64,000 nucleotides of DNA from Halomonas alimentaria (GTDB lineage Bacteria; Pseudomonadota; Gammaproteobacteria; Pseudomonadales; Halomonadaceae): assembly GCF_009902005.1 (NCBI RefSeq), contig NZ_WUTT01000001.1, positions 1,888,227-1,952,226 of the forward strand. The letters are read 5' to 3'. Below, piece by piece: positions 35,996 through 43,565 of the stretch (position 1 is the stretch's first letter; every line of letters begins with the position of its first letter). Below the pieces are notes generated by a model. It did not search any database, was not told the origin of the DNA, and worked only from the letters and a program-made list of their open reading frames with translations. The position numbers and the translations under genes were made by a program.

Positions 35996-36913
35996 ATGGC
36001 GGATATCGCGGGGGCCCTGGGGCCCCTGTTCCTGCTGATCCTGCTGGGCTGTGTGCTGGATTGGCTGCGTCAGCCGGGGGGTGACTTCTGGCCACGGCTT
36101 GAACGGCTGATCTACTTCCTGCTGTTCCCCGCCATGCTGGTCTCGACCCTGGCCACCGCCGACGTCAGCCAGGTACCGGTGACCCGGGTGGCGGTGGCGC
36201 TGCTCGGTGCCATGGGGGTGTTCGCCGCCCTGCTGTGGGCGCTACGCGGCTGGCTGGGCATGGAGCCCGCGGCCTTCACCTCGGCTTTCCAGGGCGCACT
36301 GCGCTTCAACACCTACGTGGGGGTAGCCGGCGCCGCGGCACTGCACGGTGCGCCGGGGGCCACCGTGGCCGCGGTGGCCGTGGCGCTGATGGTCCCGGTG
36401 GTCAACGTGCTCTGCGTGACCAGCTTCATCGCCGCGGGAACGTTGGGCAGCGGCAGCCTGGGCAAGAGCCTGGCCGCCCTGGGTCGCAACCCGCTGATCC
36501 TCGCCTGCCTGGTCGGTATCGGCCTGAACGTCAGCGGCATCGGCCTGCCGGGCTGGAGTGCGGCGACGGTGGAACTGCTGGGACGTGCCGCCCTGCCCCT
36601 GGGCCTGGTGGCGGTGGGCGTGGCGCTGCGCCCCGCGGCCCTGGTGCGCCGCGATCGCGGCATCTGGGCCAGCCATCTGGTGAAGCTGGGGCTGATGCCG
36701 GCCCTGGCCCTGGCCCTGGCGCTGCTGCTGGGTCTCGATCCGGTGAGCCGCGACGTAGTGCTGCTGTTCGCCGCCCTTCCCACCGCCACCTCGGCCTATA
36801 TCCTGGCCCGCCAGCTGGGCGGCGATGCCGAGATGATGGCGGCGCTGATCACCGGCCAGACCCTGCTGGCCATGGTGACCCTGCCGCTGTGGCTGCGCCT
36901 GGCGGGCGCCTGA
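35996..36913 (+). CDS. AEC-family transporter (auxin efflux carrier-like)
   Basis: This 305-aa membrane protein has about ten helices in two repeats. The N-terminal PLFLLILLGCVLDW, the FNTYVGVAGA segment and ALPTATSAYILARQLGGDAE near the C-terminus are typical of bacterial AEC proteins, which move organic anions such as malate. The substrate is not inferable. ATG 35996 follows CAAGGAGA. A candidate small RNA gene begins about 70 bp downstream. Confidence 0.85.
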   Translation: MADIAGALGPLFLLILLGCVLDWLRQPGGDFWPRLERLIYFLLFPAMLVSTLATADVSQVPVTRVAVALLGAMGVFAALLWALRGWLGMEPAAFTSAFQGALRFNTYVGVAGAAALHGAPGATVAAVAVALMVPVVNVLCVTSFIAAGTLGSGSLGKSLAALGRNPLILACLVGIGLNVSGIGLPGWSAATVELLGRAALPLGLVAVGVALRPAALVRRDRGIWASHLVKLGLMPALALALALLLGLDPVSRDVVLLFAALPTATSAYILARQLGGDAEMMAALITGQTLLAMVTLPLWLRLAGA

Positions 36914-36947
36914 TTCGCACTGCAAATAAAAAACGCTCGCATTTGTG

Positions 36948-36977
36948 TTGACAAGGCAAACGAGAACGATTACTCTT
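36948..36977 (+). promoter_or_regulatory. Promoter with overlapping Fur-box-like sequence
   Basis: TTGACA (36948-36953) and TACTCT (36971-36976) are 17 bp apart. The 19-mer at 36959-36977 matches the Fur consensus at 13 of 18 informative positions and covers the -10 element, the usual place for repression. No open reading frame with a Shine-Dalgarno sequence follows; a terminator lies about 115 bp downstream. Confidence 0.6.
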
Positions 36978-36983
36978 CAGTTG

Positions 36984-37097
36984 TCGGCGTTGATGAGGCG
37001 CCGTCACCAGCCAGGGCCCGCCAGTCTCCTGGCCTGGTTTCTCCCTCCTCATTGCTAGTCACGGTCTTGCGCCACCCTCACCGAGGGTGGCCTTTTT
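36984..37097 (+). ncRNA. Candidate Fur-regulated small RNA (RyhB/PrrF-like)
   Basis: The stretch of about 114 nt runs from the predicted start after the promoter at 36948-36976 to a rho-independent terminator ending at 37097. It can form a 9-bp hairpin with a single bulge at 37007-37037 (CCAG-CCAGG with CCTGG-C-CTGG). Then comes a pyrimidine-rich unpaired stretch with CATTGCT at 37050-37056, and then the terminator. This layout, including a free CATTGCT-type core, resembles RyhB. The region lies between the ends of convergent genes. It is identified from sequence only, so its existence and targets are inferred. Confidence 0.55.
37071..37097 (+). terminator. Rho-independent terminator of the candidate small RNA
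   Basis: A 9-bp perfect stem GCCACCCTC/GAGGGTGGC with an ACC loop is followed by CTTTTT. The T run is on the plus strand, so it does not serve hemN. Confidence 0.88.
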
Positions 37098-37101
37098 CGT
37101 T

Positions 37102-38487
37102 CTACACCGTGCGCGAATAGCGCCCCTTGCTGTGGGCCAGGTAGGCGTCGAAGGCCATGGCGGCGTTGCGCATCATCAGCCGACCGGCGGGCAGCACCTC
37201 GATCTCGGCATCGCGGATCGCCAGCAGGCCGTCGTCGGCCATCTCCTGAAGCTCCTCCAGGGCATCGGCGAAGTAGTCACGGAAGACGATGCCATGCTCC
37301 GCCTCGATGACGGCGAAGTCGATGCGGTTATGGCACATCAGGGCGTTGATCACGTCGCGACGCAGGCGATCGTCGTCGCTGAGCCGGTAGCCACGGAACA
37401 CCCCTAGGCGGCCCTCCTGCAGGCGATGCTGGTACTGGGCGGTCTCCTTGACGTTCTGGCTGTAGGTGTCGCCTACCTTGCCGATGGAGGTGATGCCCAG
37501 GCCGATCATGTCGCAGTCGGCATGGGTGGAGTAGCCCTGGAAGTTGCGCTGCAGGGTGCCATTCTCGCGGGCCAGGGTCAGCTCGTCCTCGGGCAGGGCG
37601 AAGTGGTCCATGCCGATGTACACGTAGCCGGCCTCGGTGAGGCGGCGAATGGTCAGCTCCAGCAGTTCCAGCTTGCGCTCGGGGGGCGGCATGTCCTCGG
37701 GGCGGATCAGGCGCTGGGCCTTGAACAGTTCCGGCAGGTGGGCATAGCTGTAGGTGGCGATGCGGTCCGGGCGCAGGGCGATGATCTTGTCCAGGGTGGT
37801 GTCGAAGCTGGCCACCGTCTGCAGCGGCAGGCCGTAGATGAGATCGACGCTCACCGACTCGAAGCCCGCGTCGCGGGCGGCGTGGACGAGGGAGATGACA
37901 TCCTCCTCGCTCTGCACGCGGTTGACCGCCTTCTGCACGTCGGGGTCGAAGTCCTGCACCCCGAAGCTCAGGCGGTTGAAGCCCAGCGCATGCAGCTCAT
38001 GGATCTGCTCGGGGGTCACGGTGCGCGGGTCCACCTCCAGCGAGAACTCGCGCTCCTCGGGCGGCGCGAAGTGGAAGGCGTCATCGAGGCTCGCCATCAG
38101 CTCGCCGAGCTGGGTATTGCTCAGGTAGGTCGGGGTGCCGCCGCCCAGGTGCAGCTGGGTCATGCGCCGGGTCTCGTCGAACAGCGCCCCCTGCACACGG
38201 ATCTCCTGCTGGAGCCAGGCCAGGTACTCCGCGGCACGCTCGGTGTTGTGGGTAATGATCTTGTTGCAGGCGCAGTAGTAGCAGAGGCTCTTGCAGAAGG
38301 GGATATGCACATAGACCGACAGCGGCTTGGGCGTCTCGGCGCGGTTGCTGCGCTCGGCCGCCGCACGGTAGTCATCCTCGGCGAAGGCCGCATGGAACTG
38401 GGGCGCCGTGGGATAGGAGGTGTAGCGCGGCCCGGGGCGGTCGTACTTCTCGACCAGCGGGCGATTGAAGAGCAGATGGTCTTGCAT
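37102..38487 (-). CDS. hemN: Oxygen-independent coproporphyrinogen III dehydrogenase
   Basis: This 461-aa radical SAM enzyme makes protoporphyrinogen IX when oxygen is absent. The 4Fe-4S cluster motif CKSLCYYCAC (Cys65, Cys69, Cys72, plus Cys74) is that of true HemN rather than HemW. The N-terminal RYTSYPTAPQF segment is also HemN-specific. The start at 38487 gives this N-terminus; a longer frame to 38604 adds unconserved residues. An ANR/FNR-like box lies about 110 bp upstream. It complements hemCDXY at 7-11 kb and provides haem for the anaerobic cytochromes nearby. Confidence 0.96.
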   Translation of the reverse strand: MQDHLLFNRPLVEKYDRPGPRYTSYPTAPQFHAAFAEDDYRAAAERSNRAETPKPLSVYVHIPFCKSLCYYCACNKIITHNTERAAEYLAWLQQEIRVQGALFDETRRMTQLHLGGGTPTYLSNTQLGELMASLDDAFHFAPPEEREFSLEVDPRTVTPEQIHELHALGFNRLSFGVQDFDPDVQKAVNRVQSEEDVISLVHAARDAGFESVSVDLIYGLPLQTVASFDTTLDKIIALRPDRIATYSYAHLPELFKAQRLIRPEDMPPPERKLELLELTIRRLTEAGYVYIGMDHFALPEDELTLARENGTLQRNFQGYSTHADCDMIGLGITSIGKVGDTYSQNVKETAQYQHRLQEGRLGVFRGYRLSDDDRLRRDVINALMCHNRIDFAVIEAEHGIVFRDYFADALEELQEMADDGLLAIRDAEIEVLPAGRLMMRNAAMAFDAYLAHSKGRYSRTV

Positions 38488-38590
38488 GATCAAACGGCCT
38501 CGTTGAAAGCTCTGGCAGCGCCACGGCGCTGCCGAATGCTGGGCAGTATGCCAGCCTGGGGCCGGCGCGTCGGTACCCTTGTGGTGGTAG

Positions 38591-38604
38591 TTGACGCCGG
38601 TCAA
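38591..38604. promoter_or_regulatory. ANR/FNR-like box upstream of hemN
   Basis: TTGAC-GCCG-GTCAA is a perfect 5-4-5 inverted repeat matching the ANR/FNR/DNR consensus. A CATACT -10-like element on the minus strand (38545-38550) would place the box about 60 bp upstream of the transcription start, the usual class I distance. It overlaps the last codons of nnrS. Confidence 0.6.
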
Positions 38605-40281: not shown

Positions 40282-40731
40282 ATGCACCTGACTCGCTTTA
40301 CCGACTATTCGCTGCGTGTGCTGCTCTATCTGGCGGTGAAGGGCGAGCGTCGCTCCACCATCACCGAGATCGCCGAGCGCTTCGACATCTCGCGCAACCA
40401 CCTGATGAAGGTGGTCCAGGACCTCAGTCACCACGGCTATATCACCTCCATTCGCGGCAAGAACGGCGGACTGCTGCTCCGGCAGGAGCCACACAGCATC
40501 GTGCTTGGCGAGCTGGTGCGCCGCACCGAACGTGACCTTACTCTGGTGGAGTGCTTCGGCGACGACAATGAGTGCGTGATCACCCCTGCATGCCGGCTCA
40601 AGCATATCCTGAAGGAGGCACTCGAGGCCTTCCTCGCGGTGCTCGACGGCTACACCCTGGAGGACCTGCTGGGCCCACGCCGCCAGCCACTGATCCGCCT
40701 GCTGCAGCTGGACGACACTCCCGCCGCCTGA
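40282..40731 (+). CDS. nsrR: Rrf2-family NO-sensing repressor NsrR
   Basis: This 149-aa winged-helix regulator has the N-terminal MHLTRFTDYSLRVLLYLA, shared by NsrR, and the helix-turn-helix around residues 25-50. Three cysteines that ligate the NO-sensitive Fe-S cluster are Cys91, Cys98 and Cys104. It is most similar by eye to NsrR among Rrf2 proteins (IscR has a different cysteine spacing). NsrR represses NO-detoxification genes such as nnrS until NO destroys the cluster. The operator at 39774-39796 suggests control of its own operon. Confidence 0.92.
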   Translation: MHLTRFTDYSLRVLLYLAVKGERRSTITEIAERFDISRNHLMKVVQDLSHHGYITSIRGKNGGLLLRQEPHSIVLGELVRRTERDLTLVECFGDDNECVITPACRLKHILKEALEAFLAVLDGYTLEDLLGPRRQPLIRLLQLDDTPAA

Positions 40732-41435: not shown

Positions 41436-43565
41436 ATGCCCGAATCATCCCTTCGGCCGGCCGGACTTGTCGGCCTGCTGCTGACGCTTATTTTCCTGCT
41501 GGTTTCCCTGCCGCTGCACGCCATGGAGCTGGCGCAGGTGCGCGAAGGCTTCCCCGCGGCGGACCGCCTAGAGCCTGCCGACTCCCAGTGGCCGGTCAGC
41601 CGGGTCATGGCCGGTAACGAGACGCTCGGTTACGCCTTCGAGAGCGTCGAGATGGCGCCGATTCCCGCCTACTCCGGCAAGCCGGTCAATATGCTGGTGG
41701 CCTTCGACCTCGATGGGAATATCGTCCAGGCCGACGTGATCAGCCACGAGGAGCCCATCATGCTGGTGGGCATTCCCGAGCAGAAGCTCGAGGATTTCGC
41801 CGACGACCACGTCGGCGCCCACGTCAACGACCGCATGAAGGTAGGTGGGAACCTCGACGCCATCTCCGGTGCCACCGTGACCGTCATCGTGGTCAGCGAC
41901 ACCGTGATGCGCGCCGCCCGCCTGGTCGCCGCCGAGCAGGGGCTGATCGCCGACCCCTCCGCCGCCCCGGCGGCAACGGTGCGCGAGGATGTCTTCGAGG
42001 CGGCGGACTGGTCGACGCTCACCGGCGACGGCACCATCCGCCGCCTGCACCTGACCCATGGCGAGGTGGACGACTCCTTCGTGGGCACCCCGGCCGAGGA
42101 TTACATGCATACGCCGCAGCCGGCGGAGCGCACCTTCATCGAGCTCTTCTACACCTACCTGAACCCGCCCACCGCCGGGCGCAACCTGCTCGGCGACACC
42201 GGCTACGAGCAGCTGATGGAGCGGCTCGACGAGGGCGAGCATGCCATCGCGGTGATGGGACGCGGCGACTACTCCTTCAAGGGCTCCGGCTACGTGCGCG
42301 GGGGCATCTTCGATCGCATCGAGCTCTCCCAGAACGGCAACACCGTGAGCTTCCATGACCGCGACCATATCCGCCTGGGCAACCTCGGCATCGAGGGCGC
42401 CCCGGCCTTCGACGAGCGCGATATCTTCATCATTCGCGATGCGGCCGCCTTCGACCCCGGCCAGCCGTGGCAGCTGGAGCTACTGGTGCGCCGCGCCTCC
42501 GGCCCCCTGGACACCGAGTTCAGCCGCTTCAGCGCCGACTACAGCGTGCCCGAGGCGTATATCGAGCGTCCCGAGCCGCCCAAGGAGGTGCCGATCTGGG
42601 TCGAGGTGTGGAAGGACAAGGCCTTCCAGATCGCCGTGCTCGCCGCCGGCCTGATCGTGCTCACCGGCATCATGCTGTTCCAGGACGTGCTGGTGAAGCA
42701 TCCGCGCATCCTGCGCCCGCTGCGCCTGGGCTTTCTGGTCTACACCCTGGTGTTCATCGGCTGGTACTCCCTGGCCCAGCTCTCGGTGGTCAATATCCTG
42801 ACCTTCACCAACGCCCTGATCACCGACTTCAGCTGGGGCTCCTTTTTGATCGACCCGATGATGTTCATCCTCTGGTCCTTCGTGGCGGTGAGCCTTCTGC
42901 TGTGGGGCCGCGGCGTGTTCTGCGGCTGGCTGTGCCCCTTCGGCGCCCTCCAGGACCTGGTCAACAAGGCTGCCCGCAAGCTCGGCGTGAAGCAGTACGA
43001 GCCGCCCTTCGGTCTCCACGAGCGGCTCTGGGCGCTGAAGTACATCATCCTGCTGGGGCTGTTCGCGGTCTCGCTGCACTCGCTGGGCACCGCCGAGCGC
43101 TATGCCGAGGTGGAGCCCTTCAAGACCGCCATCACCCTGCGCTTCCAGCGCGAGTGGGGCTTCCTGCTCTACGCCCTGGTGCTGGTGGCGATCTCCGCCG
43201 TCAACCACAAGTTCTACTGCCGCTACGTCTGCCCGCTGGGCGCCGGCCTGGCGATCCCCGCCCGCCTGCGCCTGTTCGACTGGCTGAAGCGGCACCGCGG
43301 TGACTGCGGCACCCCGTGCCAGATCTGCGCCAACGAATGCGAAGTGGCCGCCATCCACCCGGATGGTCGCATCAATGCCAACGAGTGCCACTACTGTCTC
43401 GACTGCCAGATCACCTACCACGACGACAAGCGCTGTCCGCCGATGATCAAGCGGCGCAAGCGCTATGAGAAGGCGTCGCGCCTCTCCCGTGGCAAGGGAG
43501 GCGTCGAGAGCCATGACCCCGCCAGCGCACGGCTGCAGCGGATTCCGACCTATCAGGAGGAGTGA
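41436..43565 (+). CDS. nosR: N2O reductase regulatory/electron-donating protein NosR
   Basis: This is a 709-aa membrane flavoprotein required for NosZ activity and nos expression. It has a signal anchor, then a periplasmic FMN-binding domain with DAISGATVTV (the covalent flavin threonine motif), about six transmembrane helices from about 395 to 610, and two CxxxCP motifs (CGWLCPFGA and CRYVCPLGA). A C-terminal ferredoxin-like domain has eight cysteines (CGTPCQICANEC and CHYCLDCQ). All expected parts are intact. It is the first gene of nosRZDFYL and ends 3 bp before nosZ. No nosX/apbE lies in the cluster. Confidence 0.97.
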   Translation: MPESSLRPAGLVGLLLTLIFLLVSLPLHAMELAQVREGFPAADRLEPADSQWPVSRVMAGNETLGYAFESVEMAPIPAYSGKPVNMLVAFDLDGNIVQADVISHEEPIMLVGIPEQKLEDFADDHVGAHVNDRMKVGGNLDAISGATVTVIVVSDTVMRAARLVAAEQGLIADPSAAPAATVREDVFEAADWSTLTGDGTIRRLHLTHGEVDDSFVGTPAEDYMHTPQPAERTFIELFYTYLNPPTAGRNLLGDTGYEQLMERLDEGEHAIAVMGRGDYSFKGSGYVRGGIFDRIELSQNGNTVSFHDRDHIRLGNLGIEGAPAFDERDIFIIRDAAAFDPGQPWQLELLVRRASGPLDTEFSRFSADYSVPEAYIERPEPPKEVPIWVEVWKDKAFQIAVLAAGLIVLTGIMLFQDVLVKHPRILRPLRLGFLVYTLVFIGWYSLAQLSVVNILTFTNALITDFSWGSFLIDPMMFILWSFVAVSLLLWGRGVFCGWLCPFGALQDLVNKAARKLGVKQYEPPFGLHERLWALKYIILLGLFAVSLHSLGTAERYAEVEPFKTAITLRFQREWGFLLYALVLVAISAVNHKFYCRYVCPLGAGLAIPARLRLFDWLKRHRGDCGTPCQICANECEVAAIHPDGRINANECHYCLDCQITYHDDKRCPPMIKRRKRYEKASRLSRGKGGVESHDPASARLQRIPTYQEE

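Follow-up and report, generated by a model that had tools for sequence, protein, structure and literature searches.

The window, that is, the whole stretch of 64,000 nucleotides that was analysed, very probably encodes a trans-acting small RNA that is homologous to, though diverged from, Pseudomonas PrrF, is controlled by Fur and pairs with mRNAs of iron proteins. Pseudomonas PrrF shuts off iron-consuming enzymes, such as succinate dehydrogenase, under iron scarcity. The RNA described here has a seed and a loop peculiar to its lineage; its homology to PrrF and its status as an RNA gene are well supported. An earlier note on this DNA had proposed a Fur-controlled iron-sparing RNA of RyhB/PrrF type for positions 36948–37097. 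The observation on this interval was confirmed as a whole and the interpretation was largely right: the kinship is with PrrF (end-to-end match to the Rfam model; recovery of Pseudomonas-type loci by a covariance model, R1) and not with RyhB. Features of the locus are collected in Table 1.

Table 1. Features of the small RNA locus and its flanking genes, in window positions.
Feature	Position	Strand	Evidence and remarks
AEC-type membrane transporter gene, flanking, outside RNA	35996–36913	+	Mem_trans PF03547
Upstream Fur-like element AATAAAAAACGCTCGCATT, just 5′ of −35	36925–36943	+	11/18 match; putative role
−35 TTGACA	36948–36953	+	TTGAC conserved across copies
Main Fur-like box AACGAGAACGATTACTCTT, overlaps −10	36959–36977	+	12/18 match
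−10 TACTCT, weak	36971–36976	+	spacer to −35 of 17 bases
Small RNA, ∼115 nt	36983–37097	+	PrrF alignment, R1 match 36973–37111, conservation
5′ hairpin, 7 bp, loop 36990–36998 UUGAUGAGG	36983–37005	+	covariation
Second, bulged hairpin	37006–37038	+	minimum-energy fold
Pyrimidine-rich conserved core TTTCTCCCTCCTCATTGCTAGTCACGGTC	37038–37066	+	near-invariant
Pairing region CATTGCTAGTCACGG	37050–37064	+	complementary to sdhC start and HiPIP leader
Rho-independent terminator, 9 bp stem and T run (CTTTTT)	37071–37097	+	
hemN-type gene, flanking, convergent, outside RNA	37102–38604	−	Radical_SAM and HemN_C

The TTGACA-17-TACTCT promoter reported earlier was located, and its arrangement is conserved in copies of the RNA: TTGAC followed after 17–21 bases by TNNNNT was found in 39 of 40 copies from the genus and in 27 of 38 from other genera (37/40 and 1/38, respectively, with the same test on a shorter stretch). 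The −10 hexamer is poor (3/6 to TATAAT), so the promoter was not returned by a consensus promoter scan; the 5′ end of the RNA was placed from the position of this hexamer. The claimed lack of a credible open reading frame was borne out, as the sole plus-strand ORF of at least 20 codons over most of the RNA has 37 codons and starts upstream of the promoter. The strong terminator likewise held up (z −4.41; 0/200 shuffles as stable). Two PrrF traits, a Rho-independent terminator and a free-standing intergenic position, are both present at the window locus.

Homology to PrrF was assessed with the Rfam model RF00444. In a permissive scan of 601 bases, positions 36948–37099 were aligned end to end with the model (positions 1–150 of 150; 35.9 bits, E 2.1e-4); TCACGGT and the terminator fall at the corresponding model positions. 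The gathering cut-off of RF00444 (90 bits) was reached neither in the window nor in any of 151 genomes of the family, so the window RNA is not a member of RF00444 as curated and homology is claimed instead; a scan of the whole window at Rfam gathering thresholds returned only a tRNA. Without its promoter, the transcript scored 15.3 bits (E 1.5), and two unrelated families gave smaller E values there. Because this transcript-only score is insignificant, direct homology to Pseudomonas leans partly on the Fur/promoter region and on intermediates. The window sequence by itself would be too little for the claim, which is carried by the relatives. At E≤1e-3, RF00444 matched 117 of the 151 family genomes, from 23 of 24 genera (best 75.1 bits), and 46 of 293 genomes in the order. 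Twelve of these 46 pass the cut-off (127–162 bits); all belong to family f21, presumed to be the Pseudomonas family since no other family passes. The other 34 lie below the cut-off and come from the window's own family, f1, and eight further families.

Covariance model R1 was built from alignment A2, whose 61 rows were picked by hand from 79 stretches of family f1 among 93 listed; the pattern used to draw copies misses L071. The R1 match in the window starts at 36973, at the −10, which leaves out most of the Fur-like box, and rows of other genera hold part of it. Conservation between promoter and terminator, named earlier as a test of the proposal, was found by DNA search in 35 of 37 genus genomes (the two misses being genomes of 79 % and 85 % completeness) and by R1 in 150 of 151 family genomes; 34 of the latter supplied model rows, so 116 of the 117 others match. 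The DNA search of 21 more distant genomes gave one 30-base match, confined to promoter-side positions of the query. Loci of other families were matched by R1 in 29 of 32 cases at E≤0.01, weakly at L118 (E 0.003) and L119 (E 0.0065); L116, L120 and L121 gave no match. A class-wide draw of 369 genomes yielded four R1 matches, all inside the order and including an f21 genome at its PrrF locus (E 8e-9), and nothing outside the order; these whole-genome searches of family and class were run with stricter filters, by which weak matches are lost.

Convergence was weighed as an alternative, in which an independently evolved Fur-controlled RNA would resemble PrrF only because the conserved sdhC start must be paired by both, much as RyhB, NrrF and BrrF have unrelated sequences and common targets. 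The best-shared block, GCTARTCACGG, is exactly the sdhC-complementary part, and the insignificant transcript-only score also fits. We nevertheless regard convergence as improbable, since graded intermediate cores lie at the same place before the terminator (f21 has CATCAGGCTAATCACGG, most other genera of the family have CATCAAGCTAGTCACGG, and the window's genus, like locus L080 of genus g32, has CATTGCTAGTCACGG), RF00444 scores of up to 75.1 bits occur in other genera of the family, and R1, although it starts at the −10 in the window, finds Pseudomonas-type loci.

The Fur-like 19-mer AATGATAATNATTATCATT over the −10 was present as described at 36959–36977, but its reported score of 13/18 was corrected to 12/18 on recounting. 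Five 19-mers tie at 12/18 in the 64 kb window, and none scores higher, when the Fur consensus is used for scanning; the box in the window sequence alone is therefore only suggestive, and conservation makes the case. A best upstream 19-mer of at least 12/18 was found in 39/40 genus copies (vs 5.1 % of shuffled stretches), 34/38 copies from other genera (vs 6.1 %) and 93/98 copies from named genomes (vs 8.7 %). Among the 40 genus copies, this score is attained by 35 at the main position over the −10 and by 33 at the position of the upstream element; in some relatives that element has the sequence ATTCTCGTTTGC, which is GCAAACGAGAAT, one form of the main box, in reverse complement. The PrrF trait of a Fur box over the promoter is hence present as sequence, at 12/18 in the window and conserved across copies, and Fur control of the RNA gene is very likely. 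The canonical Fur 19-mer GATAATGATAATCATTATC was discarded as evidence: the window box matches it at 11/19, but 72 such sites occur in the window.

The window box carries two T-to-C changes relative to the genus form AAATGAGAATGATT, and three other copies (L031, L036 and L037) have a degenerate main box (7–9/18), as would be expected if a PrrF-like RNA had been freed from Fur here, its box decayed and its expression constitutive or under another regulator. Such a loss has a low probability, because 12/18 positions remain together with an upstream element at 11/18, the three degenerate copies keep 12–13/18 upstream, and the motif with two mismatches is also found close to genes of the kind that Fur typically controls. 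When up to two mismatches are allowed, AAATGAGAATGATT occurs six times in the genome and its reversed pattern not at all. Apart from the RNA gene, one occurrence is close to a ferritin-domain gene, one is flanked by genes for a TonB-dependent receptor and an ABC ATPase, and three have no evident iron gene near them. The copies with a degenerate main box are candidates for altered or shifted iron control. L036 and L037 are second copies in G022 and G026, L031 is the only DNA match in G024, and the conserved core is kept in all three.

The exact 19-base core CTCATTGCTAGTCACGGTC was found in at least 118 stretches of the GTDB collection; the names among the 80 loci listed are Halomonas, Vreelandella, Billgrantia and, once, Halovibrio. 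Copies are tandem or dispersed, and each has a terminator-like end. In 34 of 37 genus loci an AEC gene precedes the RNA in the same direction, and 13 of 30 loci of other genera have an AEC match; hemN was matched in 4 of 37 genus loci. The haem and Fe–S cytochrome neighbourhood invoked earlier is consequently not conserved, and haem genes nearby were rejected as functional evidence, being local to close relatives. A cis-acting role, whether as the 3′ end (UTR and terminator) of the AEC message or as hemN antisense, is highly improbable despite the frequent AEC gene upstream, given the RNA's own conserved promoter and Fur-like boxes, the occurrence of copies both in tandem (as many as five, at L109) and dispersed, the lack of an AEC match in 3/37 genus and 17/30 other-genus loci, and the rarity of hemN. 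Head-to-tail arrays comprise five copies at L109, three each at L263 and L315, and two each at L019, L022 and L028; they resemble prrF1-prrF2 of P. aeruginosa, and longer read-through RNAs could exist.

The fold of positions 36984–37099 is more stable than most shuffles (z −2.74; 3/200 as stable) and becomes ordinary without the terminator (z −0.80; 42/200). As the stability is mostly that of the terminator, the single-sequence fold proves little. The bulged hairpin noted earlier was located in the minimum-energy fold at about 37006–37038. The pyrimidine-rich stretch with CATTGCT is real; its description as unpaired is doubtful, since in the same fold CCUCAUUGC is base-paired to the region of the 5′ loop. 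For the 5′ hairpin, covariation was measured in alignment A1 (36 rows; the four divergent copies L034–L037 of 40 were excluded). Here 95.6 % of cells are paired, 43 cells are changed on both sides (11.3 in shuffles), and the covariation score is 0.471 (0.175 in shuffles; at most 0.139 for slid versions). Change on both sides was seen in five of seven pairs (3.6 in shuffles; reached by 15/500), and the number of pair types was not beyond that of shuffles (12 vs 11.0; 168/500). On balance, these figures give good support to a structured RNA.

The order of parts is that of the Rfam model of PrrF1/PrrF2: TTGAC, Fur-like box, 5′ hairpin, second hairpin, a pyrimidine-rich core ending in GCUARUCACGGU, and terminator. 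Complementarity to the sdhC start and sibling copies, tandem or dispersed, are further points of likeness. The window RNA differs from PrrF in its seed, which is CAUUGCUAG where PrrF has CAUCAGGCUAA; in a loop, UUGAUGAG, that is complementary to the start of the seed; in its synteny with the AEC gene within the genus; and in its 35.9 bits, compared with the cut-off of 90. The PrrF pairing core (...GCUAAUCACGGU) is present as GCTAGTCACGGT, one base different in the block, and the preceding half is changed from CAUCAG to CAUU. In Halomonas and Vreelandella copies the seed is shortened and the hairpin loop is complementary to it. The loop motif TGATGAG/TAATGAG precedes the core in 35/40 genus copies and 86/95 copies from named genomes (overlapping sets), in 1/38 copies from other genera and in 0/34 from other families. 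It is complementary, with G–U pairs, to the seed start CUCAU(U), and both regions are paired in the minimum-energy fold; because the columns are nearly invariant, covariation is no test of this pairing. CATTGCT is best read as a late change inside the PrrF lineage, not as kinship with RyhB. Rather doubtful, though conceivable, is a further step in which Halomonas and Vreelandella exchanged the seed CAUCAAGC for CAUUGC, which extends the sdhC match by two bases, and gained the loop UUGAUGAG, which would close over the seed until a target or Hfq opens it; the outcome would be an iron RNA that sequesters its own seed and has a re-tuned set of targets.

A likely target is sdhC. Its start, CCGUGAAUAGCAA, is complementary to UUGCUAGUCACGG with one mismatch; the gene begins with ...GCCGTGAATAGCAAACGACC, of which 12 of 13 positions are paired with UUGCUAGUCACGG, the GTG start codon lying inside. 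CCGTGANTAGCAA occurs exactly twice per genome in five of five genus genomes, once within the RNA gene and once at the start of sdhC, the latter representing one inherited site and not five independent events. Exact CCGTGAATAGC was found in 23 of 30 sdhC genes of the family and in 14 of 25 from other families. The second codon of the family sdhC genes, where it encodes Asn, is AAT in 24/24 cases, compared with 8/25 for a nearby Asn of these genes and 55/301 in window ORFs (five of the 30 genes were excluded as misfits to the codon parser); in other families the contrast is weaker (18/22 vs 11/25). This bias points to selection on RNA, though start regions are often A/T-rich.

Pairing energies were compared with background windows and shuffled cores. 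For sdhC and the 29 nt core, 1213/3182 windows and 457/1000 shuffled cores were as good; with shorter seeds the figures were 42/3194 windows (15 nt) and 123/3194 windows (17 nt). Pairing energy with the wide core was rejected as a guide to targets, since it does not single out sdhC and the pyrimidine-rich part pairs with many purine-rich stretches. As the pairing energy is not exceptional, the case for sdhC rests on position, conservation and family precedent, and its repression by the RNA is likely. Both sdhC and sodB are given as confirmed targets of RyhB and PrrF in the accessible part of PMC7377471. For sodB, which the earlier note had listed, no convincing site was found here (−11.9 kcal mol−1), and it was rejected as a target because its pairing is no better than background (3052/3182 windows and 786/1000 shuffled cores as good or better). 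The RNA is missing from a single family genome of 151, G075 (genus g40), and of 31 genomes examined for an Sdh_cyt gene this one alone lacks it; regulator and main target may have been lost together, as one case in the expected direction. At L161 (G059, genus g24) the sdhC start is CCGTGAAAGACAAA, in which the pairing site is partly lost, and the RNA match there is among the weaker ones (E 2e-7).

When the 17-base complement CCGTGACTAGCAATGAG was searched with up to three mismatches, three genome sites were found besides the RNA gene. One of them, CCGTGACTGGCAACGAG (two mismatches), lies 33 bases before the ATG of a gene for a high-potential iron–sulphur protein (HiPIP, PF01355; L123:1173–1484, minus strand), a type of product that the hypothesis predicts among the targets. 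No background window (0/3194) and no shuffled core (0/300) pairs as strongly, which makes it the strongest partner among the candidates tested. The site could be luck, because the reversed control gave seven sites against four with the RNA gene included, and no such site with at most one mismatch is listed in four relatives. The HiPIP mRNA is a strong new lead as a predicted target, and it may be a young or a fortuitous one.

The search with TAGCAATGAGG (up to one mismatch) gave 18 sites including the RNA gene (vs 11 for the reversed control). One of them, TAGCAAGGAGG, ends eight bases before the ATG of a gene (L055:377–1492, minus strand) for a cytochrome oxidase subunit II that carries a cytochrome c domain; most of its ribosome-binding region, ACTAGCAAGGAGG, can pair with the wide RNA core. 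The pairing is good with the wide core (31/3182 windows and 14/1000 shuffled cores do as well) but not with the 15 nt seed (476/3194 windows). The subunit II mRNA is a possible target, put forward as a lead only. In some of five genomes, sites of CCGTGANTAGCAA with up to one mismatch also lie at the starts of an ATP-synthase b gene and of an ATE_N-domain gene; these too are leads only, because such sites number 37 overall against 52 in controls.

Homology, conservation, RNA structure, the conserved promoter with its Fur-like boxes, and complementary sites, of which that at sdhC is conserved, were seen directly; the iron response, Fur binding, the use of Hfq and the direction of regulation are inferred. 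With sufficient iron, Fur–iron would occupy the box over the −10, perhaps together with the upstream box, and the gene would be off. Under iron scarcity the ∼115 nt RNA would be made, ending at the terminator, and its core CUCAUUGCUAGUCACGG would pair over the GTG start codon of sdhC, with the leader of the HiPIP mRNA and, possibly, over the ribosome-binding site of the cytochrome-c-carrying oxidase subunit II. Translation would be lowered by the pairing, and Hfq and RNase E would presumably take part, as they do for PrrF and RyhB.

The proposed job is the same as that of RyhB, and CAUUGCU is common to both RNAs. The RyhB model of Rfam gave no match in the window and locus scans (the latter up to E 10), and R1, at odds with RyhB kinship, finds nothing outside the order. 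PrrF itself is described, in the accessible part of PMC4211561, as a Pseudomonas RNA without sequence homology to RyhB, with siblings in tandem in P. aeruginosa and distant from each other in other species; ArrF of Azotobacter, named in a title cited there, is counted with PrrF as the closest known system, and another cited title names sdhC among the genes regulated through NrrF of Neisseria. The accessible part of PMC7377471 places sdhC among the genes regulated through BrrF of Burkholderia and states that BrrF lacks a Fur box immediately upstream and does not resemble known Fur-regulated RNAs. NrrF, BrrF and IsrR of Staphylococcus are, like the RNA proposed here, iron-sparing RNAs, and the locus matched no such family in the Rfam scans. 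The literature searched, which is thin in subscription journals, yielded no paper on a PrrF-type RNA native to Halomonas or to related bacteria. The PrrF1 scaffold of P. aeruginosa serves as a synthetic tool in H. bluephagenesis, according to the accessible parts of PMC13101641 and PMC13414033.

Halomonas is an industrial chassis, and a native PrrF relative could interact with constructs on the PrrF1 scaffold. More broadly, one homologous family of iron-sparing RNAs would extend across parts of the surrounding order, hidden by the high cut-off of Rfam and offering many natural variants for comparison; one branch, in which seed and loop changed together, would amount to a natural experiment in the rewiring of small-RNA targets.

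Two further genes were observed near the RNA locus. Window positions 40282–40731 hold a gene for a regulator of the Rrf2 family, and positions 41436–43565 hold one for a membrane protein with FMN-binding and 4Fe-4S domains, the product of which is presumably NosR-like.
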